Part shown: positions 508 to 53,290 of the stretch, one piece after another
Position numbering within the stretch: position 1 is the first letter of the stretch
Layout: the number at the start of each line of letters is the position of its first letter
Assembly: GCA_943736015.1 (NCBI GenBank)
Contig: OX031061.1
Span: 18,857,290 to 18,921,289, forward strand
DNA: 64,000 nucleotides
Source of the DNA: Tridacna crocea
Lineage: Eukaryota > Mollusca > Bivalvia > Cardiida > Cardiidae
Direction: 5' to 3'
Translations under genes and position numbers: made by a program
Notes under the pieces: generated by a model
The model's database searches: none
Told to the model about the DNA's origin: nothing
Seen by the model: the letters and a program-made list of their open reading frames with translations, nothing else

Positions 508-3378
508 GATGATATATTAATATTGATACAATGACATTGGTAGGAAAACAGATGGTAAGGGTTTGGCTGTATGGGAGGAGGAGGAGGTCATGATATTTCC
601 ATTCATTATGACAAGAAAACCAATTAAAAAAAAAAAGTGAAGAAAAAACCACAAACACACACAAATATTAATACAATGGTACTTGGTAGGCAAAAAAGTG
701 GTGAGGGTTTGGCTGTAGGGGAGGAGGAGGCCATGATATTTCCGTTCATTATGACAAGAAAACCAGTAACAAAACAAAACAAAAAAAATACCACACACAC
801 ACAAATATTCATACAATGATATTGGTAGGAAAAAAGATGATAAGGGTTTGGCTGTAAGGGAGGAGGAGGCCATGATATTTCCATTCATTATGACAAGAAA
901 ACCAGTAACAAAATTAAAAGAAACACACACACACACACACACACACCCACACACACAGAGATATTAATACAATGATAATTGGTAGGAAAAAAGGTGGTAA
1001 GGGTCTGGCTGTAGGCAAGGTGGAGGAGGCCATGATATTTGCGCTCATTATGACAAGAAAACCAATAACAAAACAAAAAAAAAAAAAACACACACACACA
1101 AACATTAATACAATGATATTGGTATGAAAAAAGGTGGTAAGGGTTTGGCTGTAGGGGAGGAGGAAGCCATGATATTTCCATTCATTATGACAAGAAAACC
1201 AGTAACAAAACAAAAAAAAAAACACACACACACAAATATTAATAGAATGATATTGGTAGGAAAAAAGATGATAAGGGTTTGGCTGTAAAGGAGGAGGAGG
1301 CCATATTTTCCGTTCATTATGACAAGAAAACCAATAACAAAATTAAAAAAAAAAAACACACACACAGATATAAATACAATGATAATTGGTAGGAAAAAAG
1401 GTGGTAAGGGTCTGGCTGTAGGCAAGGAGGAGGAGGCCATGATATTTGCGCTCATTATGACAAGAAAACCAATAACAAAACAAAAAAAAAACCCACACAC
1501 ACACAAACATTAATACAATGATATTGGTATGAAAAAAGGTGGTAAGGGTTTGGCTGTAGGGGAGGAGGAGGCCATGATATTTCCGTTCATTATGACAAGA
1601 AAACCAATAATGAAACAAAAGAAACGCACACACATACAACTATTAATACAATGATATTGGTAGGAAAAAAGTGGTAAGGGTGTGGCTGTAGGAGAGGAAG
1701 AAGCCATAATATTTCTGTTCATTATGACAAGAAAACCAGTCACAAAAATTTAAAAAAACAGTTATTAATACAATGATATTAGTAGGAAAAAAGGTGGTGA
1801 GGGTCTGGCTGTAGGGGAGGAGGAGGCCATGATATTTCCGTTTGTACAGCAATAAGAAAAAAAAGGTGGAAAGGGATTCGCTGTAAGTGAAGAGGAGGCC
1901 ATAATATTTCCATTTATTATGACACGAAAACCAATAATAAACAAAAAAAAAAAAACCCACACACAAATATTATTAAAATGATATTGGTAGGAAAAAAGGT
2001 GGTTAGGGTTTGGCTGTAGGGGAGGAGAAGGCCATAATATTTCCGTCCATTATGACAAGAAAACCAGTCACAAAAATCAAAAGAAAGACAGATATTAATA
2101 CAATGATATTAGTAGGAAAAAAGGCGGTGAGGGTCTGCCTGTAGGGGAGGAGGAGGCCATGATATTTCGGTTTATTATGACAAGAAAACCAAAAACACAC
2201 CAAAAAAAAGGCACACACATACACACATAAATAGTAAAACAGTGATAAAGGTAGGAAAAAAGATGAAAAGGGTTTGGCTGTAGGGGAGGAGGAGGCCATG
2301 AAATTTCCGTTCATACAACGATATGGGAAAAAAGGTGGTAAGGATTTGGCTTTAGGGGAGGAGGAGTCCATAAAATTTCCTTTCATTATGACAAGAAAAC
2401 CAGTAACAAATATTTCAAAAAAAAATTAATACGATGATAAGGTGGTAAAGGGTTGGCTGTAGGGGAGGAGGAGGCAATAATATTCCTTTCATTATGACAA
2501 GAAAACCAATAACAAAATTTAAAAAAAAAACACACACACACATATTAATATAATGATATTGGTGGGAAAAAAGGTGGTAAGGGTTTGGCTGTAGAGGAGG
2601 AGGAGGCCATAATATTTCCATTCATTATAACAAGAAAACCAATAACAAAATTAAAAAAAAAACACACATACAAAAGTATTAATGCAATAATATTGGTAGG
2701 AAAAAGGGTAGTTAGGGTTTGGCTGTAGGGGGGGAGGAGGCCATATTTCCATTCATTATGACAAGAGAACCAATAACAAACTTAAAAAATGCACACACAT
2801 TCACACACAAATATTAATACAATGATATTGTTAGGAAAAAGGTGGTAAGGGTTTGGCTGTAGGGGAGGAGGAGGCCATGATATTTCCGTTCATACAACAA
2901 TACGGAAAAAAAGGTGGTAAGGGTTTGGCTGTAAGTGAAGAGGAGGCCATAATATTTCCATTCATTATGACAAGAAAACCAATAACAAAACAAAAAAAGA
3001 AACCCACACACACAAATATCAATACAATGAAATTGGTAGGCAAAAAGGTGGTAAGGGTTTGGCTGTAGGGGAGGAGGAGGCCATAATATTTCCGTTCTTT
3101 ATGACAAGAAAACCAATAACGAATTAAAAAAAAAAAAACAGATACACACGCACCAATATTAATACAATGATATTGATAGGAAAAAAGGTGGTAAGGGTTT
3201 GGCTGTAGGGGAGGAGGAGGCCATAATATTTCCCTTCATTATTCATGACAAGAAAACCAATAACAAAATTAAAAAAAAAACACATACACTAATATTAATA
3301 CAACCACATGGGAAAAAGGTGGTAAGAGTTTGGCTGTAGGGGAGGAGGAGGCCATTATATTTTCCTAAATTATGACAT
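508..3378 (+). repeat. Satellite array, 23 units, mostly 130-150 bp
   Basis: The core GGTTTGGCTGTA recurs near 561, 707, 847, 1004, 1145, 1277, 1412, 1549, 1682, 1805, 1878, 2009, 2135, 2272, 2346, 2452, 2585, 2719, 2852, 2922, 3059, 3198 and 3330. A full unit runs: TTAATACAATGATATTGGTA, an A-run, the core, GGGGAGGAGGAGGCCAT, TTCATTATGACAAGAAAACC, then poly-A followed by (CA)n. Three spacings are only 70-74 bp (1805, 2272 and 2852); these half-units lack the poly-A/(CA)n block and share a CGTTCATACAAC-type junction. Open frames of up to 145 codons on the minus strand are by-products of the periodicity: they repeat the same ~45 residues and are rich in V, C and F from the (CA)n tracts. No gene is called. 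Confidence 0.95.
922..958. repeat. (CA)n microsatellite inside the satellite
   Basis: This is the longest CA run of the array and is broken by a single CCC. Other units carry 4-8 CA repeats at the same point, so the microsatellite belongs to the unit and has expanded here. Confidence 0.9.
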
Positions 3379-4203
3379 GTATTTGATATTAAGCAATCAT
3401 TCAACACATTACAGTATAAATGGTTGACAGAGTGGAAGGAGGCCTGTCTGTTATATCCAACTCTGTTTGTATCATTGGGCAGAAGATATCTCCTCAAACC
3501 TTATCCATACTTGCCTGTGAAAGACACAGGAATATATTATCCTGGATCACCCAGCCTATAGGAAATTGTATATGTGAGGTTTTAATGTTCACACTTGCAA
3601 AGTAAACTTTTGTTTACCATAAATGCCTACATATGATAAAGGTGAATATGTAAAATAACATGTGAGATTACAGTGCTTTCATTTACAAAGAGAAAACATG
3701 ACATTTAGGAGTTGTTGTGATTGTGTGGTTCCCATGCACACTATACAGACAACAACAATGACGGGCTACCACCAATGCTAATGTGTATGTTTCAGTGCTA
3801 GAACTATAAATTTTGATAGGAAGTGATATTCATAATTTGATGAGAATAGGTGGTCTGCAGCAAGGTTTAAAATGTATACTTGTTAATCCATAAAAAACAT
3901 GTTTTGTTATTCCTTAGCTGTATTCCCATGTTGCAGACAGTGCACAAGGGTTGTCCCATTGAATCATAGACACTTTATAGAAAAATATTTCTTAATGTCT
4001 AATTGCAATAGTTTTATAAGTATATGTATTATAAAGAAGTGATGTGCTATATTTTAGAGCATTGATGTGCTATATTTTACAGCAGTAATGTACTATTTGT
4101 AAAGGACATAAGCTCACTGTTACATGCAGTTGTTAACTTCAAAATGTGCGCTGGTTGGCATTTGTGATATATTTCAAAATTGTTTAAGTTAATGACTTTA
4201 CAT
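3379..4203. other. Unassigned, with a short 23-bp tandem
   Basis: No gene or known element seen. At 4040-4097 a 23-bp unit (TGATGTGCTATATTTTA...) occurs two and a half times. Confidence 0.6.
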
Positions 4204-4204
4204 C

Positions 4205-4432
4205 TTAGCTCTTTACCACTCAATGCCAACTGTTAACGACCCTGAGAAAGAAAGCCTTTGAAAACATTGTGGAAAAAGGAAAAAATGCTGGTAACCAGCA
4301 TTTTCTCCTTTTTCCAACAATGTTTTCTACCCTTTCCAAATCACATTTCAAAATTAGATTCAGATTTATTTTGTCATCTGCAAATACTTTCAATCTGGAC
4401 TGGTCCAAAATTTTGTCAGTTGGTAAGGAGGC
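4205..4432 (-). mobile_element. MITE-A, full length, reversed
   Basis: About 228 bp, with TTAGCTCTTTACC at the left and GGTAAGGAG at the right. It carries the family's central palindrome (here TGCTGGTAACCAGCA) flanked by GGAAAAAGG and CCTTTTTCC, plus the TTTTGTCATCTGC and GGACTGGTCC blocks. Compared with better copies, both terminal TTAA sites have decayed. TTAA ends beginning CYCTTTACC suggest mobilisation by a piggyBac-type transposase (inference). Confidence 0.88.
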
Positions 4433-4534
4433 AGTGATATTTTTAGCAAATAGTAATCTTGGTTTAAAAAGTGATGAATAGAATCTCTTTAAACTGTATC
4501 CCTCACTTTTATTGTTACTTCAATTGTCTTTGAT

Positions 4535-7676: not shown

Positions 7677-10140
7677 AGCTCTATTGGTCAAAGGCCAGCA
7701 GAGCTTACATCATGGCCTGTTTTCCTGGTCATTCTGTCCATTTATTTGTTCTTTGTGTTTTTAGCTCACCTGAACACGAAGTGCTCAGAGTGAGCTATTG
7801 TGATAGTGCTGTGTCCGTCGTCCATCGTCAGCTTTTACCTTGTGTACGCTCTAGAGGCCACATTTATGTCTAATGCTCATGAAACTTGGTCAGAATGTTT
7901 GCCTTGATGAAATCTCGTACGAGTTTGAAATTGGGTCATGTCGGGTCAAAAACTAGGTCACCAGGTCAAATCTTAGAAAAACCTTTGGTAAGTTCTAGAG
8001 GCCACATTTTCAGTCTAAATCTCATGAAAGTTAGTCACAATGTTTGCTTAAGATATCTCAAAAATGTTTGAAAATGGGTCATGTCGGGTCAAAAACTTGG
8101 TCACCAGGTCAAATCTGAAAAAAACCTTGTGTAAGCTCTATAGGCCACATTTTCAGTCCAAAACTCTTGAAAGTTGGTCAGAATGTTTGTCTTGATGATA
8201 TCTTGGATGAGTTTGAAAAATGGGTCATGTCTGGTAAAAAACTAGGTCACCAGGCCAAATGTTAGAAAAACCGTTTGTATGCTTGAGAGGCCACATTTTC
8301 AGTCCAAAACTCTTGTAAGTTGGCCAGAATGTTTGTCTTGATGATATCTGGGACAAGTGTCAAAATGGGTCATGTTGGGTCAAAAACTAGGTTACCAGGT
8401 CAAATCTTCGAAAAACCTTGTATATGCTCTGGATGCCACATTTTCAGTCCAACACTCTTGAAAATTGGTCAGAATGTTTGCCTCAATAATATCTTGGATG
8501 AGTTTTAAAATGGGTCATGTTGAGCAAAAACTAGGTCATTAGGTCAAATGTTATAAAAACCTTGTGAATGCTCTGGAGGACACATTTTCAGTCCGATTTT
8601 CCTGAAACTTGTTCATAATATTTGTCTTGGTGACACCTTGAATGAGTTTGAAAATGGGTCATGTGGAGTCAAAAACTAGGTCGCTGGGTTAAATATTAGA
8701 AAAACCTTGTGTACACTCTAGATGCCACATTTTTGTCTGATACTCTTCAAACTTGGTCAGAATGTTTGTTTCGGTGATGTCTCAAATGAGTTTGATAATG
8801 AGTAACTGTGGGGTCCAAAACTAGGTCACTTGATCAAATTTTAGAAAAAACTTTTGTACACTGTAAAGGCCACTTTTTCTGTCCAAAACTCATGAAATTT
8901 GGTCAGAATGTTTGTCTTACTGATATCTCAAACGTGTTTGATAATGGGTAATGTCTGATAAAAAAAACTAGGTCACTGGGAAACTAGATTGAAATGGTTC
9001 CATGTTTGGTCAATAGACTCGGGTGAGCGATTTCAGGGCCATCATGGCACTCTTGATCTTGTTTAATCATTGAAGTTGTTTTGTCATATTTTCATAAAAA
9101 TTAAAGGGTTTTGTAATACCATCAACAGTCTAAACCCTATTGATTTTGAAACAAGTGTCCCAATTAGGCAAAAGTTGTCACAAAAGGTTGTAAATTCACA
9201 ATTCTTGTTGATGGGATGAGATCCACATGTTGTGGCTGGATTTTTGTTATATCTGCACAGTTTTATATCATCATAAGCTTGAACCCTATTGAGTTTGATA
9301 ATAACCTGATGATAAAAAGGGGTAAATTGGCCATTTGAAGTAGTACATTAATTTTGCTTTTCTTGTTTTCACAATAAAGTCTGCCTTTGTGGTCAGATTT
9401 TTGTAAAACTTGCACAGATCAATTGTAATATCAATAGCTTTAGCTCTATTGATTTTGAAAAAAAAAATTAGACTGTTAGGAGGGGAAAAGTAGCCAGTTA
9501 AAAAGTTAACATTTGTCCTTCTTGCTTACACAATTTAAGACTACATTATTTTGTTGTCAGAATTTCTTCAAACTTGCAGAGGTTATTTTTATCATCAACC
9601 CAGACCCCATTAAGAAAAGTAGATATTTTGAGTTGCATTTCTTTTGTACTTCATCAAGTAGGCAATTTTGATCCAGTTGCTTTTAAACTTGCACAGATCA
9701 CTAGTCTTGTATAATCATCAAGGGATTTTTACACTTAAATTGAAAGTGAATTGAAAGTGAAGAAAATCTAGCATCATTTAAGGTAAAGTAAAGTCTTGTT
9801 CATTCAACGAAGTCCACATTGTTGATTCATGTAAAATGCATGAAATCCAAAACTTTTTATCATAATGAGCAGTAATCTGACAAGTACTGAATGTTTGTCA
9901 GATTTCCAAACAAGTGGTTTCAACAAATTCTTCTTCGATTATTTCACTAATTGTTCAATTCTTCATGCATACTTGTTATGCTGCATTAGTGGACTCAAGT
10001 CCAATTATAGGCCCCACCATGTTTTGTCAGTGTGTTTGTCTTTTTCCTTCTAACACGAAGGATTGTATGCTAGAAAATACTAGTAAGCAAACTTACAGCC
10101 AGTAGAGCAATTCAGGCCCTCAAGGGCCTCTAGTTCCTTA
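7677..10140 (+). mobile_element. Array family 2 element, interrupted
   Basis: The head TTAGCTCTATTGGTCAAAGG and GCCAGCAGAGCTTA is at 7677-7710. The tail GCAATTCAGGCCCTCAAGGG with CCTCTAG is at 10108-10135; GGCCCTCAAGGGCC is a hairpin. Inside lie degenerate ~130-150 bp units: aqueous paraphrases of 'lead to the next CACATTGTTGTGGC, CTTGCACAGATCA, TATCATCAATAGC, CCCTATTGATTTTGA' recur from 9120 to 9620. The element is split by a complete family 1 element at 7761-9062. It has no transposase frame and is non-autonomous. Confidence 0.75.
7761..9062 (+). mobile_element. Array family 1 element nested in family 2
   Basis: The head hairpin is TTAGCTCACCTGAACACG with GTGCTCAGAGTGAGC, then TATTGTGAT and a CGTCGTCCATCGTC run. 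The tail is GGGTGAGCGATTTCAGGGCC and ATCATGGCACTCTTG. Between them are eight tandem units of ~144 bp; GGTCAGAATGTTT or a variant lies at 7888, 8032, 8175, 8322, 8467, 8611, 8755 and 8901. Each unit also has GGGTCATGT and AAAACTAGGTCACCAGGTCAA. This head hairpin, tandem core and tail hairpin layout is that of bivalve pearl and DINE/Helentron-type elements (established for the class; membership here is inferred). Simple insertion between T residues (gttt/ttag, cttg/ttta) fits. Confidence 0.85.
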
Positions 10141-12335: not shown

Positions 12336-12563
12336 TGTTTGGATTCTAACCCTCAAATAATTTCTCTTTAATCTTGCTGTGACATTGATGTACTAGGTGC
12401 TTTGATATCTATGATAAGAGAAAATAAAACTTGAGGGGATTATTTTTTTTACAACAATCTGTCCCTGAAAGATCAATAACCATTCCAGTTTGTTTTGGTC
12501 CAACTTTAGAGGCAGTATATTTCTTCTTTTGCGCTGTGAAATCGAAAATCTTGGTATTTTCAC
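12336..12563. other. Unassigned
   Basis: No gene, repeat or motif recognised. Confidence 0.5.
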
Positions 12564-12791
12564 TTAACCCATTACCACACAATCCCTACTTTTGACGACC
12601 TTGGGAAAGTAGCCTTTAGAAAACATTGTGGGAAAAGGAGAAAATGCTGGTATCCAGCATTTTTCCTTTTTCCACAATGTTTTCTACCCTTAACAAAACA
12701 AATTTCAAATTTTCAGTCACTTTTATTTTGTCGTCTGCCAATACTTTCGATTTTGGCAAACCTAAAATTTTGTCGTGTGGTAAGGAGTTAA
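12564..12791 (-). mobile_element. MITE-A, full length with intact TTAA ends
   Basis: 228 bp from TTAA to TTAA. Left TTAACCCATTACCACACAAT, right GTCGTGTGGTAAGGAGTTAA. The centre is TGCTGGTATCCAGCA between GTGGGAAAAGGAG and CTTTTTCCAC. One of the best-preserved copies and a good reference for the family. Confidence 0.93.
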
Positions 12792-13069
12792 GACATAAGA
12801 CTTCCACTATTTTGTCTTCAGTTGAGTAATCAACTCTGCACTTTTTCTTAATGGAATTTCCCTGATGCTTAACAGACCAAATAAAAAGTTTGGGAAGGTT
12901 TTTTGAAATTGATAAGAAAAAAACTACACATTTTTTTTCCTGTTTACAACATGCTTTTAAGACTTTTTAAGACTTTACAAACCCACCTTTCCTCCCACAC
13001 TCGACAAATTTCTTAATGAGGATTCATTCCTCTCTCACAGCTGATTAATGTTTCAAAGATTATTATGTG
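12792..13069. other. Unassigned
   Basis: Poly-T and AAGACTTTTTAAGACTTT duplications only. Confidence 0.5.
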
Positions 13070-34865: not shown

Positions 34866-35136
34866 AAATGAATTGACTTGCAATTGACCTTTATGCAAAG
34901 AATCATTAAAGAATGAATATTTATATCATTGGGTATAATTGGACAGTATGAAATTCTGTTGAAGGTAAATGTCAAGTTTGAACCTTACTGTGCCATAGGC
35001 AAAATAAGAGGCGTTTGCTGATGACATAGATCAAGACCAGGGCTGCCCCTGCAAGTTTCAAGTTTGGCGCCATCAAATTTGTCACCTCATAAAAATTGGG
35101 GACAGTAGGAGCCAAATGAGGTAGCCACATAGTACA
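34866..35136. other. Unassigned
   Basis: Nothing recognised. Confidence 0.5.
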
Positions 35137-35373
35137 TTAACTCTTTACCACACGACAAAATTTCAGACTAGTTCAGATTGAAAGCATTTACAGACGACAA
35201 AAAAGGTAAACATAAAGGTGACTGAAAAATTGAAATTTGTTCTGGGAAGGGTAGAGCACACTGTGAGAGAAGGAAAACATGCTGGTTATCAGCATTTTCT
35301 CCTTTTCACACAGTATTTTCAAAAGGCTTCTTTCTCAGGGGCGTCAAAAGTAGGGATTGTGTTTTAAAGAGTG
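35137..35373 (+). mobile_element. MITE-A, nearly full length
   Basis: TTAACTCTTTACCACACGAC at the left; centre CATGCTGGTTATCAGCATTT; right CGTCAAAAGTAGGGATTGTG then TTTTAAAGAGTGAAA in place of the usual GGTAAAGGGTTAA. Confidence 0.88.
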
Positions 35374-35424
35374 AAACATTTTGACAATTTATTGGCCAAT
35401 GTTAAAGCTACTAAAAACATTGCT

Positions 35425-35667: not shown

Positions 35668-35700
35668 TTAACTCATTACAAAACAACAATATTTTAGACT
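35668..35700 (+). mobile_element. MITE-A left end, cut by the 5-kb element
   Basis: TTAACTCATTACAAAACAAC followed by AATATTTTAGACT, which stops exactly where the composite element begins. The remainder resumes at 40685. The last seven bases, TTAGACT, are repeated there. Confidence 0.85.
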
Positions 35701-35853
35701 TTAGGCTAAGGCCCAGATCAAAAAAGAGCCCTATTTTTAATTTTTTTTCAATCCATCTGGTAGAAAAATTCAAATGGTACTGTGAGTTAGGATAGCCTAT
35801 TAGAGTCACTTTAAGCATGGATGCCAGATCTGAAAGTGGTGCAGATTTTTTTT
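35701..35853. repeat. Left TIR of the composite element
   Basis: It begins TTAGGCTAAGGCCCAGATCA. A second copy of AAGGCCCAGGTCAAAAAAGG occurs internally at 36546, so part of this end has been copied inward. Identity with the right TIR is strongest over 35741-35853. Confidence 0.8.
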
Positions 35854-36415
35854 ATATGCTAATAAACGCGCCTACCCCAAATTTGCCTTTAACAAAAATT
35901 AAACTTTTCCTATGTTCACAATAATGGAAAAAACAATGAAACAATGCAATCTTTTTAACAAATCTTTTGAATTTAAGATGCTCATAAAAATCCACATTTA
36001 TATGTATGTATGACTTTGATTAAATCAAGTCTGACCAATTTCACATACCGTAAAACACGTAATAAATGTTCCTAGCAGAATGAATTGAAAATAATCTCTG
36101 AATTTCAGTCTTCACATTGAATGTGTTAATATTTCTGGCTAGATTTTTTCACATTTTTGGCTAGAGCTACTAGGACAGACATAGAGGACCAGAATTAAGA
36201 ACAGTTATGGAGTTTTAGCATTTAGCACCTCAAAAATGATCTATTTATGAGTGTAACAGTATAATTTGTTGTTGCACACTAACCTTTGATTTCGTTATTT
36301 CATTATATATTCACAACTGTAACCATAAGTATGCCAACACTAAGATTTGGCTATTTTCATTACTTTATTTTTTTTGTTATTCTTACTCTCCTACTCTGTT
36401 AATCTATTTCACTGA
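35854..36415. other. Unassigned interior of composite element
   Basis: AT-rich; no gene. CGCCTACCCCAAATTTG at ~35870 is the left-side counterpart of the right end's GGTGGGTGGGGTAA motifs. Confidence 0.5.
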
Positions 36416-36770
36416 TGCAATAGGGGATATGACTTGAAGCAAGAGGGTCATGATGGCCCTGTATCGCTCCACTGGCTAAAAATGAAAACACTGCAAGCCA
36501 AACATTACAACTCCTGCCAAATGGTTTCAAACTTGAAGACATACAATAAGGCCCAGGTCAAAAAAGGGCCCTATTTTTTTCATCCATCTGTTTCTCTAGT
36601 TCACTGATGCAATAGGGGATATAACTTAAAACAAGAGGGCCATGACGACCCTGTATCGTGCCACTGGCTAATTAGTGAAAACATTACAAGCCAAATATTA
36701 CTACTCTGGGCAATTGGTTTTAAACTTGAAGACATACATTTTTTTCCCTATAAAATCCTACGGGAAAGTT
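36416..36770 (-). repeat. ~185-bp tandem duplication of a family 3 tail
   Basis: GATGCAATAGGGGATATGAC, AAGAGGGTCATGATGGCCCT, GTATCGCTCCACTGGCTA and AAACTTGAAGACATACA appear at 36416-36550 and again from 36606. The second copy leads on into the full element; the first ends in the AAGGCCCAGGTCAAAAAAGG block. Confidence 0.85.
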
Positions 36771-37739
36771 ATGACCCCTTGACCCCTGAGCAAAGCCATT
36801 ATTGACCACAAAGCTATAATAACTTGAATCCTGGTGGAGGTCTTCAAGATAAACCCCCGTACCAAATCATACAGGTCTAGAATGTTGTATTATAAACAAG
36901 AAGATTTTCAAAGTTTCCTACAAGAAAAAAGGCCATGAAAAACATGAGACCCATGAAACAGGGCTAAATTTGGTAGCCCTAGGCTTTATTATGGTTAGTA
37001 AAAAGATCATTTATAAAGTTTTCAACACAAAAGCTAAAGTAAAACTTGTGACCCCTGGTGTGGGGACAAACTTAACCCCAAGGCTATAATTTGAGCCCTT
37101 CTGGTAGAGGCCCACTATATAAAGCTACATTCAAAATTTGGTAGTCCTAGGCCTTGCGGCTATGTACAAGTAGATTTTTAAAGGCTTTCCCAATATAAGC
37201 TCATGTAAAACTTGTGACCCCGGGGCCGGGCCAAATTTGACCCCAGGACTATAAATTGGGCAGTCTTGATAGACGCCCAGTTGTTAAAGACACATGCCAA
37301 ATTTGATAGCCCAAGGCCGTAAAGAATGATTTTAAAGTTTTCCGTATATAATCCTGTATAAAACTTGTGACCCTAGGGTTGGTGCCAATTTCGGCTCCAT
37401 GGCTATTATTTGAAGGAACTTGGTAAAAGTTCACGACATAAAGCTACATGCCAAGTTTGGTAGCCCTAGGCCTTATGCTTTCAGATAAGAAGATTTTCAA
37501 AGATTTCAATATTTTTCAGTTTTGTTGCCATGGCAAACAGAGTTTTGGAAGGAATCAGATTCTTTCAAGAAATTCTGAAGAAAGCCATGGCAGGATCATT
37601 TCTGTGAAGTTTCATCAAGTTTGGATGGGTAGTGTCAGAGGAGATGTTTGAAATATAAGTTAATGCACGTACGAACAGACACACGACGGACAGCGAGCCA
37701 TAAAGTAAGCCCGCTGGCCTTCGACCAGTGGAGCTAAAG
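36631..37739 (-). mobile_element. Array family 3 element, reversed
   Basis: On the minus strand the head is TTTAGCTCCACTGGTCGAAG with GCCAGCGGGCTTA and GTCCGTCGTGTG. The tail is AGCCAGTGG...CGATACAGGG followed by a diverged CATGGCCCTCTTG. Between them lie ~120-150 bp units marked on the plus strand by CCAAATTTGGTAGCCCTAGG, GTGACCCC and a TAAAGCTACATGCC word. Its head resembles family 2 but its core sequence is different. Confidence 0.78.
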
Positions 37740-37907
37740 TCCTCTTGATGTCAGACTTGAAATTAACAAATGCACTGTTCATTCAGCATAATTGTGACGT
37801 ATTATCAATCATCAGTTTCTTTGTTTGCTGCATTGACACTACAGCTGCGTTGTGTGTGTATGTGTATATGTGTGTGGATGTGGGTGTTTTTCTTGGTTCT
37901 TTCTTTT
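37740..37907. other. Spacer with (TG)n
   Basis: A short (TG)n tract at ~37848-37882 sits just before the next element. Confidence 0.6.
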
Positions 37908-39361
37908 TTAGCTCACCTTAGCACAAAGTGCTAAAGGTGAGCTATTGTGATCGTCCTATGTCCGGCATCAAGCCTCTGTCGTCCGTCAACAATTTCTTTA
38001 AACATCTTGTCCTAAATCACTGTGCATATCTTAATGAAACTTGGCAGGGATGTTCCTTGGGTGAAGCTCTACCAAAATTGTTCAAAGAACAGAATTCCAC
38101 TCATAATTCTGATTGCCATGGCTGCAAAAGGGGGAAAAAATCTTTGAAAATCTTCTCTGAAAGTAGAAGGCATAGAGCTTTGATATTTGGTATGTGGCCA
38201 TCTCCTAGTGGACCTCTACCAAGTTTGTTCAAATAATGCTCCTGGGGTCAAAACTGGCCCCATCCCCGGGGTCACAAGTTTGAGCATAGGAACAAAGAAG
38301 AAAAAAAATTATTATTCTTCTCCTCACAAAGTAAAAGGTATAGCACTTTGATATTTGGAATGTAACATCCACTAGTGGACTTCTACCAAGTTTGTTCACA
38401 TGATGCCCCTGGGGTCAAAACTGGTCCTGCCCAGGGGGTTACAAGTTCAAACATAGGAACAAAGAATGAAAACTTTGATATTCTTCTCCTCACTAAGTAA
38501 AAGGGATAAAGCTTTGATATTTGGAATGTAACATCTCCTAGTGGACCTCTACCAAGTTTGTTCATATGATGCCCTTGGGTTCAAAAGTGGTCTTGCCCCG
38601 GGGGTCATAAGTTTGAACACAGGAACAAAGAAGAAAAACTTTACAAATTTTCTTCTCTAAAACTTGATGGCGTAGAGCTTTGATATTTGGTATGTAGCAT
38701 CTTCTAGTGGACCTCTACCAAGTTTGTTCATATGATGCCCCTGGGGTAAAAACTGGCCCCGCCCAGGGGGTTACAAGTTCAAACATAGGAACAAAGAATG
38801 AAAACTTTGATATTCTTCTCCTCACTAAGTAAAAGGCATAGAGCTTTGATATTTGGAATGTAACATCTCCTAGTGGACCTCTACCAAGTTTGTTCATATG
38901 ATGCCCTTGGGTTCAAAAGTGGTCTTGCCCCGGGGGTCATAAGTTCGAACACAGGAACAAAGAAGAAAAACTTTACAAATTTTCTTCTCTAAAACTTGAT
39001 GGCGTAGAGCTTTGATATTTGGTATGTAGCATCTTCTAGTGGACCTCTACCAAGTTTGTTCATATGATGCCCCTGGGGTCAAAACTGGCCCTGCCCTGGG
39101 GGTCACAAGTTCAAACATAGGAACAAAGACTGAAAATTATAAAATTCTTCTTCTCTAAAACTAGAAGGCATAGAGCTTTGATATTTGGCATGTAGCATTT
39201 CCTAGTAGACCTCTCCCAAGTTTGTTCATGTCATGTCCATGGGGTCAAAACTGGCCCTGCCCCTGGGGTCACAGGTTAGTTTAAAGTTCATCACATAAAC
39301 ATGAGGGAAATAAAGCTATAGTCTCAGGTGAGCACTCCAGGGCCAATGTCCCTGGCTTGTT
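37908..39361 (+). mobile_element. Array family 1 element, 166-bp units
   Basis: Head TTAGCTCACCTTAGCACAAA with GTGCTAAAGGTGAGC forms a perfect ~14-bp stem, followed by TATTGTGATCG and a GTCGTCCGTCAAC run. Tail CTCAGGTGAGCACTCCAGGG and CCAATGTCCCTGGCTTG. The core has seven units: the TCTACC marker is at 38215, 38382, 38548, 38714, 38880, 39046 and (TCTCCC) 39212, so spacings are 167 then 166 five times. Adjacent units alternate between two types. No open frame of significance; the two 60-codon frames at 38383 and 38715 are the same repeat. Confidence 0.9.
38433..39100 (+). repeat. 332-bp dimeric higher-order repeat
   Basis: The pair 38440-38771 and 38772-39103 is nearly identical, while neighbouring 166-bp units within each dimer differ (AAGAATGAAAACTTTGATAT against AAGAAGAAAAACTTTACAAA). 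That is a higher-order repeat made by a recent duplication of two units. Confidence 0.9.
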
Positions 39362-40186
39362 GAAATATTAAGATGTAATGGATTTATTTCCTACATAACA
39401 ATGATATTTTTAATGCATAAAGCATGAATATAGTTAACAGTGGGCGCAGAAGAGTAATTGAAATAACTTAAATGTAATTGTAATAAGATTTAAAGCCTTA
39501 ACTTGTCAACAAGACAGTATTTTTGGTGCAAATGACTTTTCTTTATTTCATGTATAACTATTCAATTATTGTTTCATTTGCATTTTCTCAAATAAAGGCA
39601 CTAGGTATATGATACTTATATGTGTCTGTGCTGTAACATTTTGTGTCATTGCTGTAAAACATGAGTCGTATATATAACAATGATAAAAAAATGCTCATGA
39701 AAGAGAGCCGCGACATTTAATTTAATAAAAACAATTTCTGGGAACAAAACGAAAAATACAGTTACATTTTTAGTACTAACAGCTAGGAATCATTTACTAG
39801 ATCTATATAACTTTTTCAAGAAATTAAAATAGTTGCAAAACACTGATCTTCTCTGACATAACGTGCCAAAATTTTGTTCCAAAATACTCAATTAATATAA
39901 AACAAATATGTGTTATACAGGTGATTCAAAGTGAAATATTATAATCTGAACTGGAAAATATTTATTTTTCCTAAATTAGAATGTAATTTCTTTTACTTTA
40001 CAATTTTGTTACATGAAGGACATGTCGATGTGTTATGACTAGCATTGCATCACAGTAGACAATATTCCAGTGTGGATGTAACGATTCTTATCAAACAAAA
40101 AAATCTAACTTAATTTTCAAAAATCGTGTCTCCTAAAATCTGCCATAATTATATAATAGCTCATAGATGGCCGTGTATATACATTT
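39362..40186. other. Unassigned interior of composite element
   Basis: No gene or repeat recognised. Confidence 0.5.
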
Positions 40187-40540
40187 GTGGGTGGGGTAAA
40201 AGATAAGCACGACCGTAACAAATATACAACGCAGCAATTTAGTACAATAGTAAGCATTTAGTTCTCATTAAACCCTTTCACAAGAAATTGAAACACAAAA
40301 GTCTTAAATGATATTAAGTTTCTCATGATTTTCAAAAAATGTATGCAAATTTGGTGGGTGGGGTAACAACAGGACACCCAGTGTATTTTATCTTCTCCTG
40401 TAAATGGATTTTTTTCATTGCTTATGTGCTTAACTGTCAATTAGACCTATTTGCAATCAATATACTCCGGAAGATATTGAAATTTTGTGGTTTATACACA
40501 TAAGCTCAATTCAGTGCATTTTCAGTGGGTGGGGTAACAA
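40187..40540. repeat. Subterminal repeats, ~170 bp
   Basis: GTGGGTGGGGTAA starts at 40187, 40354 and 40525 (spacings 167 and 171). The flanking sequence of the units is weakly similar. Possible transposase-binding or end-maturation repeats of the composite element (inference). Confidence 0.65.
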
Positions 40541-40551
40541 AATGTCGTCTG

Positions 40552-40684
40552 AAAAAAATCTGCACCACTTTTGTTTCTGGCATCTACTCTAATTTGACTT
40601 CTATATAGCTATACTATCACCTGGTACTAATGAAATTTTTCTACCAGACGGATTGAAAAAAAATTGAATCCAGCTTGCCAGGCC
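40552..40684. repeat. Right TIR of the composite element
   Basis: GAAAAAAATCTGCACCACTT, GGCATCTACTC, AGTACTAATG-like and TTTCTACCAGACGGATTGAA are the reverse complement of the left TIR. It ends CAGCTTGCCAGGCC before the target duplication. Confidence 0.85.
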
Positions 40685-40889
40685 TTAGACTACTTGTTAA
40701 AATCAAAAGCACTTGCAGAAGACAAAATAAAAGTGACTGAAAGTTTGAAATTTGTTTTGTAAAGGGTAGAAAACATTGTGTGAAAAGGAGAATATGACGG
40801 TTACCAGCATTTTCTCCTATACTCACAAGTTTTCTAAAGGATTCTATCTCGGGGTCGTCGAAAGTAGGGATTGTGTCGTAATGGGTTAA
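40685..40889 (+). mobile_element. MITE-A right part, after the 5-kb insertion
   Basis: From TTAGACTACTTG through AAAGCACTTGCAGAAGACAA, GTGTGAAAAGGAGAATATGA, CGGTTACCAGCATTTTCTCC to GTCGTAATGGGTTAA. Together with 35668-35700 it makes one ordinary-length MITE-A. Confidence 0.88.
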
Positions 40890-41365: not shown

Positions 41366-41905
41366 ACAAGAGGGCCAAAATGGCCCTGGATCGCTCACCT
41401 GATTTTCCGAGAGAACCATAGCCATTTTTTTTTCAAAATCTAATCAGCCATTTTAGACAAAAAGAATTTTCAAGAATTTCTTCATATCTGTATAGTGTAA
41501 AAAGCCCACAGTCATCAGAATCATGTTTCTTGATGGATCCAAATTTCTAGAGCAATTTTTGAAAAGGGTCAGCCAAGAAACATTTCGAAAATTATTTCAA
41601 AATCTGATCAGCCGTTTCAGAGAAAAAGAATTTTAAAGAATTTCATCATGGCCATATAGTGCAAGAAGCCTCCATTCACTAGAGCCATGTTTCTTGATGG
41701 ATCAAAATTTTGTAAACAGGAAAAGGGTCATCCGAGGAACATTTCTGTGAAATTATTTCAAAATCTGACAAGCGGTTTCTGAGAAGAAGGATTTTAAAGA
41801 ATTTCTTCATTTCCTTATACATGTGGTGCAAGTAACCCCCATTCATTAGAGCCGTGTTTCTCGAGGGATCAAAATTTCGCAAACACTTTTTGGAAACATT
41901 TTTGG
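41366..41905 (-). mobile_element. Array family 1 element, tail half, reversed
   Basis: ACAAGAGGGCCAAAATGGCC, CTGGATCGCTCACCTGA opens it; three units follow with TTTCTTGATGGA at ~41527, 41691 and 41857 (164 and 166 bp apart). Units match the 51701 element. It stops in mid-unit at ~41905 without the GCTCACC head. Confidence 0.82.
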
Positions 41906-46734: not shown

Positions 46735-48792
46735 TTTTTTTCTATTGCTATAATACATGTAAAACACATGGTCCCTTTAAGGTCGATACTAATAATGATA
46801 CTGTAGTTGTTGATGAAATTGAAAGCAAATTTGTTAAATTCATTCTTTGTTTCGCAATCGCAACTAGATGATACTGCTCATTTGTTACCGAATGAATGTA
46901 TGAGAATTGTTGAACATTCTTTAAGTTCAATCAGAATCTACCCGTCCGAGGTCAAGGACATTCTAAAAACTCTTAAAGTTGGGAAAGCTTCTGGTGCAGA
47001 TGGTATTAACAACATTGTCTTGCGTCAGGCTGCAAATGAGTTAGCAACTCCCTTATGTCACTTTTTTAATTTTTCTTTGGAATCATGCAGTTTACCTTCT
47101 TCGTGAAAAACATCTAATGTTTGTCCAATTTTTAAGAGTGGCGATCCCTCGATACCATCCAACTACAGACCCGTGTCACTTCTTAACACTATGGAAAAGG
47201 TTTTTGAAAAATTAATCTATAAGCATGTCTTTAATCATTTAATAGAAACACGTTTCTTCACGCCGTGCTAGTCAGGCTTCTTACCAGGTGACTCTACTAT
47301 TAATCAGCTAATTTTTCTTTATAACAAAATATGTAAAGCTTTAGATGAAGGCTTCGAAATTAGATTTATATTTTTTGACATAAGTAAGGCCTTTGACAAG
47401 GTTTGGCATAAAGGCCTTATTTTTAAATTAAAACGGGCAGGAATAGAAGGAAAACTCTTGGCATGGTTCTCTGACTATCTTTCTATTAGATGCCAAAGAG
47501 TTGTATTGCCTGGCTGCCAGTCAAATACTAAGCATTTAAATGCCGGTGTCCCTCAGGGCTCTATTCTTGGTCCTCTTTTATTTCTTGTATACATTAATGA
47601 CATTGTCGAAAATATCGAATCCGGTATCAATCTTTTTGCGGACGACACTAGCTTGTCACTGGTTGTTAGAAATCCTGCGGAAGCGGGTAATACTCTTCAA
47701 AACGATGTCAATAAAATCAATTCTTGGGCGGAATCGTGGCTTGTTAAATTTAATCCAACAAAATCGGAATCTCTTGTCATCTCACGCAAAAGTTCGAAAG
47801 CTACTCACCCGGACCTAAACATGTCTAACATTCTTATTCCAAATGTACAAACACATAAACATTTAGGAATACACCTTTCCAGCGGTGGCTTATGGGATTA
47901 TCATATTAATAGTATAGCACAAAAGGCTTGGAAAAGAATAAATGTTATACGCAAATTAAAAAATCGTCTTGATAGAAAGTCTCTCCAAGTGATATACTTC
48001 TCATTTGTTCGACCAATTTTAGAATATGGTGATGTGGTTTGGAACAATATGCCTCAATATTTGAAAGATGATTTGGATAAAATTCAGAATGAAGCTGCCA
48101 GGATAGTTACAGGTTGTAGTAAACTAGTCTCTTTGTCTGATCTACGAAAGGAGTGCGGTTGGGAATCACTTAGTGAGCGTAGGCGTAAGCATAAACTTAT
48201 ACTTTTCTTTAAAATGATGAAAGGCTTTGCACCAACATATTTAAGTTCTCTTGTTCCTCAACTAAATAGTAGCATCAGTAACTATAATCTTCGGAATTCT
48301 AATAACCTTTACAGCATTGCATGCAGGACAAACTTGTATAAAAATTCATTTCTTCCATCTGTCGTTGATGAATGGAATTCAATTCCACAAGATATTAGAA
48401 ATTTAGCGTCTGTTTCGAGTTTTCAGAATTATTTGAATATTGATAGACCAATTCCAAATCAGTTATTCTTTGTCGGTAAAAGACGTTTCCAAATTATTCA
48501 TGCCAGATTAAGAAATGAATGTAGTTCTCTCAAGCACCATTTATTTATGCGAAATATAGTTGAGTCGCCTCTCTGCGTCTGTGGTGCAATAGAAACTAAT
48601 CAACATTATTTTTTTGAATGCCCAGTATATCGAAATGAAAGAAGCGTTTTACTTCGTTCTCTTTCACACCTTTCATGTGTGGTAGATCTAAATACACTCC
48701 TCTTTGGAAGTGATGCTTTAAGTTTTTGGGATAACAAAGAATTATTTCTTCAAATTCATTTATACATAAAAGAAAGTAAAAGATTTGACTAG
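46735..48792 (+). pseudogene. LINE reverse transcriptase, inactivated
   Basis: Reverse transcriptase that would copy element RNA by target-primed synthesis. One frame runs from ~46840 to the TAG at 48790. RT motifs in order: SGADGINNIVL (~46990), NYRPVSLLNTMEKVFEKL (~47160), FFDISKAFDKVWHKGL with the first catalytic Asp at 47377, GVPQGSILGPLLFLVYIND (~47545), FADD with the catalytic Asp pair at 47641-47646, and HKHLGIHLS (~47850). A C-terminal CVCGAIETNQHYFFEC from 48574 has a C-x-C-x7-H-x4-C pattern found in several LINE clades. Defects: TGA at 47104 and TAG at 47269, both explicable by single C>T or G>A transitions. A probable 1-base frameshift lies at ~46836-46845, because the preceding ~30 codons read on in another frame. 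The remaining 444 codons from 47458 are intact, so decay is recent. Confidence 0.93.
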
Positions 48793-51700: not shown

Positions 51701-53290
51701 TTAGCTCACCTGAGCACAACGTGCTCAAGGGGAGCTTTTAGGATCACCCGGTGTCCGTCGTCCGTCGTGCGTCGTGCGTCGTCAACAATTCTTTAAACAT
51801 CAACTCCTCCTAAACCGCTGAGCGGATTTGGACCAAACTTGGCTGGAATGTTCCTTGGGAGGTCCTTTTTAAAAATTGTTCACAGAATTTGATTCCGTCA
51901 AAAACTCTGGTTGCCTTGGAAACGAAATGGAATTTTTTAGCAAATTCTTTAAAAATCTTCTTCTCTGAAACCGCTGGCCAGATTTTAAAATAATTTCACA
52001 CAGATGTTCTTTAGGTGACCCTTTTCAAAAATTGTTCGTGAAATTTTGATCCGTCAAGAAACATGGCTCTGGTGAATGGGGGCTTCTTGCACTATACAGA
52101 AATGATGAAATTCTTAAAAATTCTTCTTCACTGAAACCACTGGCCAGATTTTAAAATAATTTCACACAGATGTTCCTTGGATGACCCTTTTCAGAATTTG
52201 TTCGCGAAATTTTGATCCGTCAAGAAACAAGGCTCTGGTGAATGGGGGCTTCTTGCACTGTACAGAAATGAAGAAATTCATAAAAATTCTTCTTCTCTGT
52301 AACCGCTGGTCAGATTTTAAAATAATTTCACAGAGATGTTCCTTGGATGACCCTTTTCAAAAATTGTTTGTGAAATTTTGATCTGTCGAGAAACATGGCT
52401 CTGGTGAATGGGGGCCTCTTGCACTATACAGAAATGAAGAAATTCTTAAAAATTCTTCTTCTCAGAAACCGCTGGCCAGATTTTAAAATAATTTCACAGG
52501 AATGTTCCTTGGATGACCCATTTCAAAAAGTGTTCGTGAAATTTTGATTTGTCAAGAAACATGGCTCTGGTGAATGGGGGCTACTTGGCTATAGGGAAAT
52601 GAAGAAATTCTTAAAAATTCTTCTTCTCATGAACGGCTGGTCAGATTTTAAAATAATTTCACAGAGATGTTCCTTGGGTGACCCTTTTCAAAAATTGTTC
52701 GCGAAATTTTGATTCATCAAGAAACATGGCTCTGGTGAATGGGGGCTACTTGCACTATAGGGCAATGAAGAAATTCTTTAAAATTCTTCTTCTCTGAAAT
52801 GGCTGGTCAGATTTTGGAAAATTTTCACAGAGATATTCCTTGGGTGACCCTTTTCGAAAATTGTTCATGAAAGTTTGATTTGTCAAGAAACATTGCTCTG
52901 GTGAATGGGGGCTACTTGCACTATATGGAAATGAAGAAATTCTTGAAAATTCTTCTTCTCTGAAACGGCTGGTCAGATTTGAAAATTGTTTCACGGAAAT
53001 ATTCCTTGAATGGCCTTTTTCAAAATGTGTTCGCGAAATTTTGATAGGTCAAGAAACATGGCTCTAGTGAATGGGGGCTACTTGCACTGTACGGAAATTA
53101 AGAAACTCCTAAAAATTCTTCTTTTTTGAAATTGCTGGTCAGATTTTGAGAGGACTTTTACAGGTGACCTTTTGAAAATTGCTTGGCAAAATAATGATTT
53201 TGTTTCCAGTGTTTCAATACCTTCAAAAAAAAAGGCTATGGTCCTCTCAAAAATTCAGGTGAGCGATCCAGGGCCATCTTGGCCCTCGTG
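51701..53290 (+). mobile_element. Array family 1 element, most regular copy
   Basis: Head TTAGCTCACCTGAGCACAAC, GTGCTCAAGGGGAGC, TTTTAGGATCACCCGGTGTC and CGTCGTGCGTCGTGCGTCGT. Tail TTCAGGTGAGCGATCCAGGG and CCATCTTGGCCCTCGTG. Seven core units are marked by ACATGGCTCTGGTGAATGGG or a variant at 52061, 52227, 52393, 52559, 52724, 52890 and 53056: spacing 166, 166, 166, 165, 166, 166. Each unit has CTGGTCAGATTTTAAAATAA, TTTCACAGAGATGTTCCTTG and GTTCGCGAAATTTTGAT. No coding frame of significance. Confidence 0.92.

Follow-up and report, generated by a model that had tools for sequence, protein, structure and literature searches.

What kind of mobile element has split a single copy of a miniature inverted-repeat transposable element (MITE) in the bivalve Tridacna crocea, and was its cargo gained where it now sits? 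The locus lies between positions 35668 and 40889 of a 64,000-nucleotide stretch of genomic DNA (G000:C6:18857290-18921289), hereafter the window, which we compared with the 1.05 Gb of the genome on 31 contigs. A prior description of the window made from its letters only (the sequence-only reading) had proposed a 5-kb element with long inverted ends that had entered the MITE, termed MITE-A, with a 7-bp target duplication and had grown by capturing array elements. Our results support, with high confidence, an account in which the element belongs to a high-copy family of non-autonomous cut-and-paste DNA transposons that has been active recently, has long inverted ends and duplicates 3 bp of its target (Table 1).

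Genomic copies define the ends of the element and a three-base target duplication

A first look across the genome gave 859 candidates, and among the 40 that were scored, 39 besides the window copy matched its left 301 bp at 97-98% identity. The best 20 of these scored matches after the window copy were fetched, and all of them span the equivalent of window positions 35702 to 40692, give or take a few bases, with tips that read TAGGCTAAGGCCCAG...GGCCTTAGACTA and differ by minor changes only. Other copies with the same ends, to which the sequence-only reading had looked for support, therefore exist. In 20 of the 21 copies, the window copy included, the three flanking bases match on both sides (CTT, ATA, CAT, ATA, GTT, ATT, GTA, GAT, TAT, AAT, TAG, CAG, ATA, ACA, AAA, ATT, ATT, CTT, TAT and CTT), the sole mismatch being L014 (CTT versus TAT), and 3-bp duplications also flank L035, L036, L037 and, taken whole, an array of the element on contig C2. 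Exact tip matches genome-wide number 777 (382 forward and 395 reverse), against 0 forward and 2 reverse for the reversed control.

The 7-bp duplication did not survive this comparison. TTAGACT does stand at both borders (35694-35700 and 40685-40691), as would be expected of an element that had duplicated 7 bp and had then been enlarged at the window locus by the capture of array elements. However, TTAGACT falls within the right tip that belongs to the transposon itself, CCTTAGACTA, and copies at unrelated sites bear that tip too. We dropped the longer duplication: the ends fixed by the other copies leave a duplication of 3 bp, and the TTAGACT repeat is a coincidence between the target TTTTAGACTT and the transposon's own CCTTAGACTA. 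The interruption of MITE-A is itself upheld by its siblings, which support the empty site; in a comparison with 12 sibling copies or fragments, the 3-bp join outscores the 7-bp join against 11, and against the twelfth (c56325) the 7-bp join is ahead by one point. With 3-bp duplications around nearly every copy and cargo that is common to other copies, as described below, the 7-bp account is left with a very slim chance. MITE-A itself recurs in the window (35133-35382, 12550-12800, 4200-4440 and elsewhere), with CCCTTTACCA-like inverted ends; several copies start with TTAA and several finish with GTTAA, and these ends suggest a piggyBac-like MITE.

The long inverted ends of the sequence-only reading are likewise supported. 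The bodies of the terminal inverted repeats (TIRs) are 79% identical over 119 columns, the tips lying outside, and their local score of 108 exceeds the 99th percentile of random window pairs (48.6), though not the random maximum of 149, which presumably reflects inverted repeats elsewhere in the stretch (500 pairs drawn, those less than 600 bp apart skipped). The proposed subterminal repeats of ~170 bp turn out to be a 13-bp motif, GTGGGTGGGGTAA, that recurs in the right arm; the 166-bp tandem units belong to the cargo element HINE B. The motif sites lie about 168, 338-339 and 505-506 bp from the right end; at two mismatches or fewer, three sites are found in 20 of the 21 elements and two in L019, and the rest of the window has none. 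When six groups of copies are compared, 37 of the 39 motif columns are constant, compared with 75% of all right-arm columns, and we regard the sites as putative binding sites for a transposase.

Identity within groups of copies is 97.8-99.98% (five copies), 99.3% (four copies) and 93.0-98.2% (12 copies, including that of the window, whose nearest relative among the 21 is L011 at 98.2%). Two copies lying 84 kb apart on the same contig, L013 and L017, are 99.98% identical and have different duplications (ATT versus TAT), which indicates very recent movement; their flanks differ over the 25 bases compared. Collectively, the element has TIRs, a duplication of fixed length across independent copies and no transposase frame, as a non-autonomous TIR transposon should, and the earlier view that such a transposon carries foreign elements inside it is borne out by the TIRs, the duplications and the HINE cargo. 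The family is both real and young. It is of an ordinary kind, that of non-autonomous TIR transposons that carry passengers, and includes intermediates suggestive of self-insertion, arm exchange and arraying. A literature search covering titles and some passages found no title on this transposon family, an 18-base tip pattern had no matches in a viral contig collection, and the left 599 bp had no match in a phage collection.

Table 1. Features of the element and of the interrupted MITE-A copy, in window coordinates
Feature	Position	Strand	Remarks
Left piece of interrupted MITE-A, with the 3-bp target duplication at its end	35668..35701	+	
Target site duplication CTT, left copy	35699..35701	.	
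Whole non-autonomous DNA transposon, 4991 bp	35702..40692	+	same ends in 20 other genome copies
Left tip TAGGCTAAGGCCCAG	35702..35716	+	
Left terminal inverted repeat body	35736..35852	+	
Truncated first copy of the 3' end of HINE A, then inner left tip	36436..36545	-	limits by eye
Eroded second (inner) left tip, TAAGGCCCAGGTC..., without the first five bases TAGGC	36547..36590	+	
HINE A (Helentron-like non-autonomous element)	36628..37738	-	limits by eye
HINE B, 166-bp tandem core, about 6.7 units	37908..39361	+	limits uncertain by a few bases
Subterminal motif GTGGGTGGGGTAA (13 bp)	40187..40199	+	
Subterminal motif GTGGGTGGGGTAA	40354..40366	+	
Subterminal motif GTGGGTGGGGTAA	40525..40537	+	
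Right terminal inverted repeat body	40552..40668	-	
Right tip, minus-strand reading TAGTCTAAGGCCTGG	40678..40692	-	
Target site duplication CTT, right copy	40693..40695	.	
Right piece of interrupted MITE-A	40693..40889	+	

The cargo is shared with other copies of the family

Two tandem-array elements ride inside the transposon, as had been noticed previously; both are Helentron-like, and we call them HINE A and HINE B. The window copy has an additional, truncated head of HINE A at 36436-36545. All 20 other copies have HINE A, or at minimum its head, at the same place, with a deletion cutting it in L011, L025 and L027, while HINE B is absent from seven copies (L012, L013, L016, L017, L021, L036 and L037), in which the empty site reads GTTTTATTTTGAAATG (five copies) or GTTTTATTCTGAAATG (two copies) with no duplication seen. 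Several cuts scored alike, which leaves the limits of HINE B uncertain to within a few bases. Read by eye, HINE B combines a subterminal inverted repeat (subTIR) and an inverted repeat with a tandem core, a 3' palindrome and a T-rich, duplication-free empty site, a plan that passages of PMC7492417 and PMC4067079 describe for Crassostrea gigas and for Helentrons. Because HINE A, or its head at least, is common to all 20 copies and the presence of HINE B varies between subfamilies, the cargo was acquired by ancestors and then amplified, and was not gained at the window locus. The proposal that the element grew by capturing array elements is therefore true of the family's history and fails for this particular insertion.

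By alignment, a group of four copies (L014, L023, L025 and L027) contains an extra passenger of ~550 bp, which in L014 lies at about 986-1537, where it has inverted ends CATCTTCGCAARCCAAGGATACT, a 9-bp duplication ACTAACCTT and an 87-codon frame containing CRVCDENL, with no Pfam families found for it.

Doubled left ends, hybrid copies and an array

The window copy has a second left tip inside the first, a doubling that the sequence-only reading had not foreseen. The inner tip is eroded here; at the corresponding site it is intact in L029 and reads TACGC in L023. We assessed how tips pair up in the first 100 of the tip list, which cover contig C1 and part of C2. Within 12 kb and on the proper side, 21 of the 38 right tips have two left tips, 13 have one and 4 have none, and seven left tips are unpaired. 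The two left tips of the doubled cases are 810-830 bp apart in 11 instances, 850-864 bp in six, 926 bp in one, 1403-1409 bp in two and 2461 bp in one; three of the 21 doubled right tips, including that with the 2461-bp spacing, belong to a single array.

Inner left ends occupy two sites in the head of HINE A. In the L012-type copies (L012, L013, L016, L017 and L021), a full second left end starts exactly at its tip, with ACATTA followed at once by TAGGC, whereas in the window copy and its kin a worn second left end follows ACATACAA, 38 bp farther on in that head, at a junction that is intact in L029 (ACATACAA directly followed by TAGGC). The outer left arm of the L012-type is 96% identical to that of the window copy, compared with 82-86% for the inner arm and the remainder, which suggests that these copies are an older body bearing a younger arm. 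Two further copies, L036 and L037 (duplications AGG and CTT), show 100% agreement in each 100-column segment of the first ~1300 bp. Their one left end is of the outer type to about alignment column 600 and of the inner type past that point, with a few exceptional diagnostic sites on either side; they could also derive from recombination between two separate elements.

Judging by these junctions, doubled left ends apparently arise by self-insertion. They might instead come from deletions within head-to-tail tandem copies, given that such an array exists on C2 and that a deletion starting in one unit's HINE A and reaching the left tip of the next would produce the identical order. However, the inner left ends at the two different sites start exactly at the tip, an outcome that random deletions would hardly be expected to give twice, and we consider deletion an unlikely route and favour self-insertion.

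The array in question (C2:15316154-15331514) is indicated by its tips to be head-to-tail, apparently of three units, with tip spacing that makes the middle unit ~1.6 kb longer than the other two. Both of its junctions (L031 and L032) read GGCCTTAGACTAGGCTAAGGCC, tip to tip with a shared TA, and a single 3-bp duplication, ACT, flanks the entire array (L039 and L040). We rejected self-insertion as the origin of the array, since it predicts GACTA remnants to the right, none of which are present in L039, and since there is one ACT duplication round the whole. An excised, tip-joined circle (junction GACTAGGC) might have entered a resident copy by homologous recombination; a fault of assembly is also possible.

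Search for a transposase and an autonomous partner

As the sequence-only reading stated, the element has no transposase frame: the longest stop-to-stop frame in the window copy is 104 codons, and six open reading frame (ORF) fragments from the carrier together with one passenger ORF fragment from another copy matched no Pfam families at E values up to 1. Two long tip pairs were considered as autonomous partners and rejected. The 11.4-kb pair on C2 is the same element with a nested Gypsy-type long terminal repeat (LTR) retrotransposon, named by eye, and the 6.4-kb pair holds a 1.8-kb insert in which the longest stop-to-stop frame found is 101 codons, with no family search made on that insert. 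At L029-L030 (G000:C2:30685100-30697100), the Gypsy-type LTR retrotransposon nested in a copy of the element shows gag/pol-like frames on the minus strand, again by eye.

Eleven of the 100 listed tips are unpaired (four right and seven left), and ~1.1 kb was read at six of them. Four run into the known element (L041, L042, L044 and L045); L043 departs from it after ~750 bp and L046 after 255 bp, and the sequence past the departure in these two has no long frames except one of 110 codons, which lies in a repeat. The sequence that cuts the element in L046 (G000:C2:1171040-1172145), 255 bp from the left tip, contains many GGGGGCAGATGTCCTA-like repeats, some in each orientation.

A working model for movement and renewal of the family

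A transposase made elsewhere in the genome would bind the tips, and perhaps also the GTGGGTGGGGTAA sites, cut at TAG/CTA and join the element to target cuts staggered by 3 bp. HINEs would insert by their own route, HINE B into a T-rich site without visible duplication, and then ride along as passengers. Insertion of one copy into another could found new subfamilies, and two sites 38 bp apart in the head of HINE A have been hit; the outer left end and the inner right end would then be mobilized jointly, and recombination of one left arm with the other could yield a hybrid element with a single left end. Taking these steps together, we tentatively suggest, as a possibility to which we give clearly less than even weight, that the family renews itself by arm swapping: mutual insertion at a preferred internal site would create two competing left ends, as in 21 of the 38 sampled right tips, three of them in one array, and left-arm recombination would fix a fresh arm on an old body. 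Tip-joined excised circles with a TA overlap would in addition enter resident copies to form arrays.

Several points weigh against our account of the family. The fetched copies were picked by left-end similarity, which favours young left ends, and the listed tips come from one contig and a portion of a second. Among the tip pairs and unpaired tips that were read there was no transposase-bearing relative, the longest tip pairs being the same element with inserts, and it is movement in trans that we infer. L014, L038 and L029/30 have no matching duplications, the recorded tip in L038 and L029/30 being the inner one, and the doubled copies may come from only two or a few founding events. With its boundary corrected, the family is well defined and has moved very recently, and it offers subfamilies, empty sites and intermediates. 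These could be used to examine how transposons that make no protein acquire passengers and swap ends, and how a carrier other than a Helentron can spread satellite-like arrays (HINE cores).

Other repeats in the window

Elsewhere in the window, a 506-codon open stretch on the plus strand (47272-48789) resembles by eye the reverse transcriptase of a long interspersed nuclear element (LINE), and a large tandem array with units of ~105-140 bp and multiples, containing AC runs, occupies 948-3377. Further tandem arrays lie at 7837-8976 (145 bp), 41431-41885 (164 bp) and 51942-53147 (166 bp), and the 164-bp and 166-bp arrays, which are related to each other in opposite orientations, resemble other HINE cores.

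Relation to known transposons and HINEs

Duplication length makes AcademX our first-guess candidate superfamily, followed by Zator and EnSpm. Autonomous Academ elements encode an Academ transposase and a nuclease of XPG type. The XPG_I profile (PF00867) has only three genome matches, with open frames of 62-68 codons and nothing element-like, and no link has been made between the TAGKCTAAGGCC tips and any transposase. On the other side, our 3-bp duplication has the length given in passages of PMC10045372 for AcademX, the branch of Academ with duplications of 3 or 4 bp, as well as for Zator (3 bp), and passages of PMC10294476 describe Academ as abundant in bivalves, with curated elements averaging 5565 bp. 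We therefore hold membership in AcademX to be possible, at a little under an even chance.

The EnSpm transposase profile (PF02992) has 11 genome matches, and at the two of these loci that were fetched there were no paired tips, only a single unpaired match at two mismatches or fewer, in L033. EnSpm/CACTA tips are of CAC type, and those of the present family read TAG...CTA. The 3-bp duplication of PIF/Harbinger elements is of TWA type, and none of our 20 matching duplications is TAA or TTA. With the non-autonomous TIR transposons that duplicate 3 bp (AcademX, Zator and EnSpm/CACTA as candidate superfamilies), the family has in common inverted ends, a 3-bp duplication of no fixed sequence, no coding capacity and many copies.

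The passengers have a different affinity. HINE B, and HINE A by its ends, share with the HINE, Cg_HINE and Pearl elements of bivalves, which are non-autonomous Helentrons, as portrayed in passages on them, a subTIR with a nearby inverted repeat, a GTCC-like stretch, a tandem core and a 3' palindrome, whereas the 3-bp duplication and the long TIRs belong to the carrier and have no counterpart in those passages. HINE insertions in other repeats are described for Crassostrea gigas in parts of PMC7492417; here, by contrast, the host transposon has been re-amplified together with its passengers as one unit.

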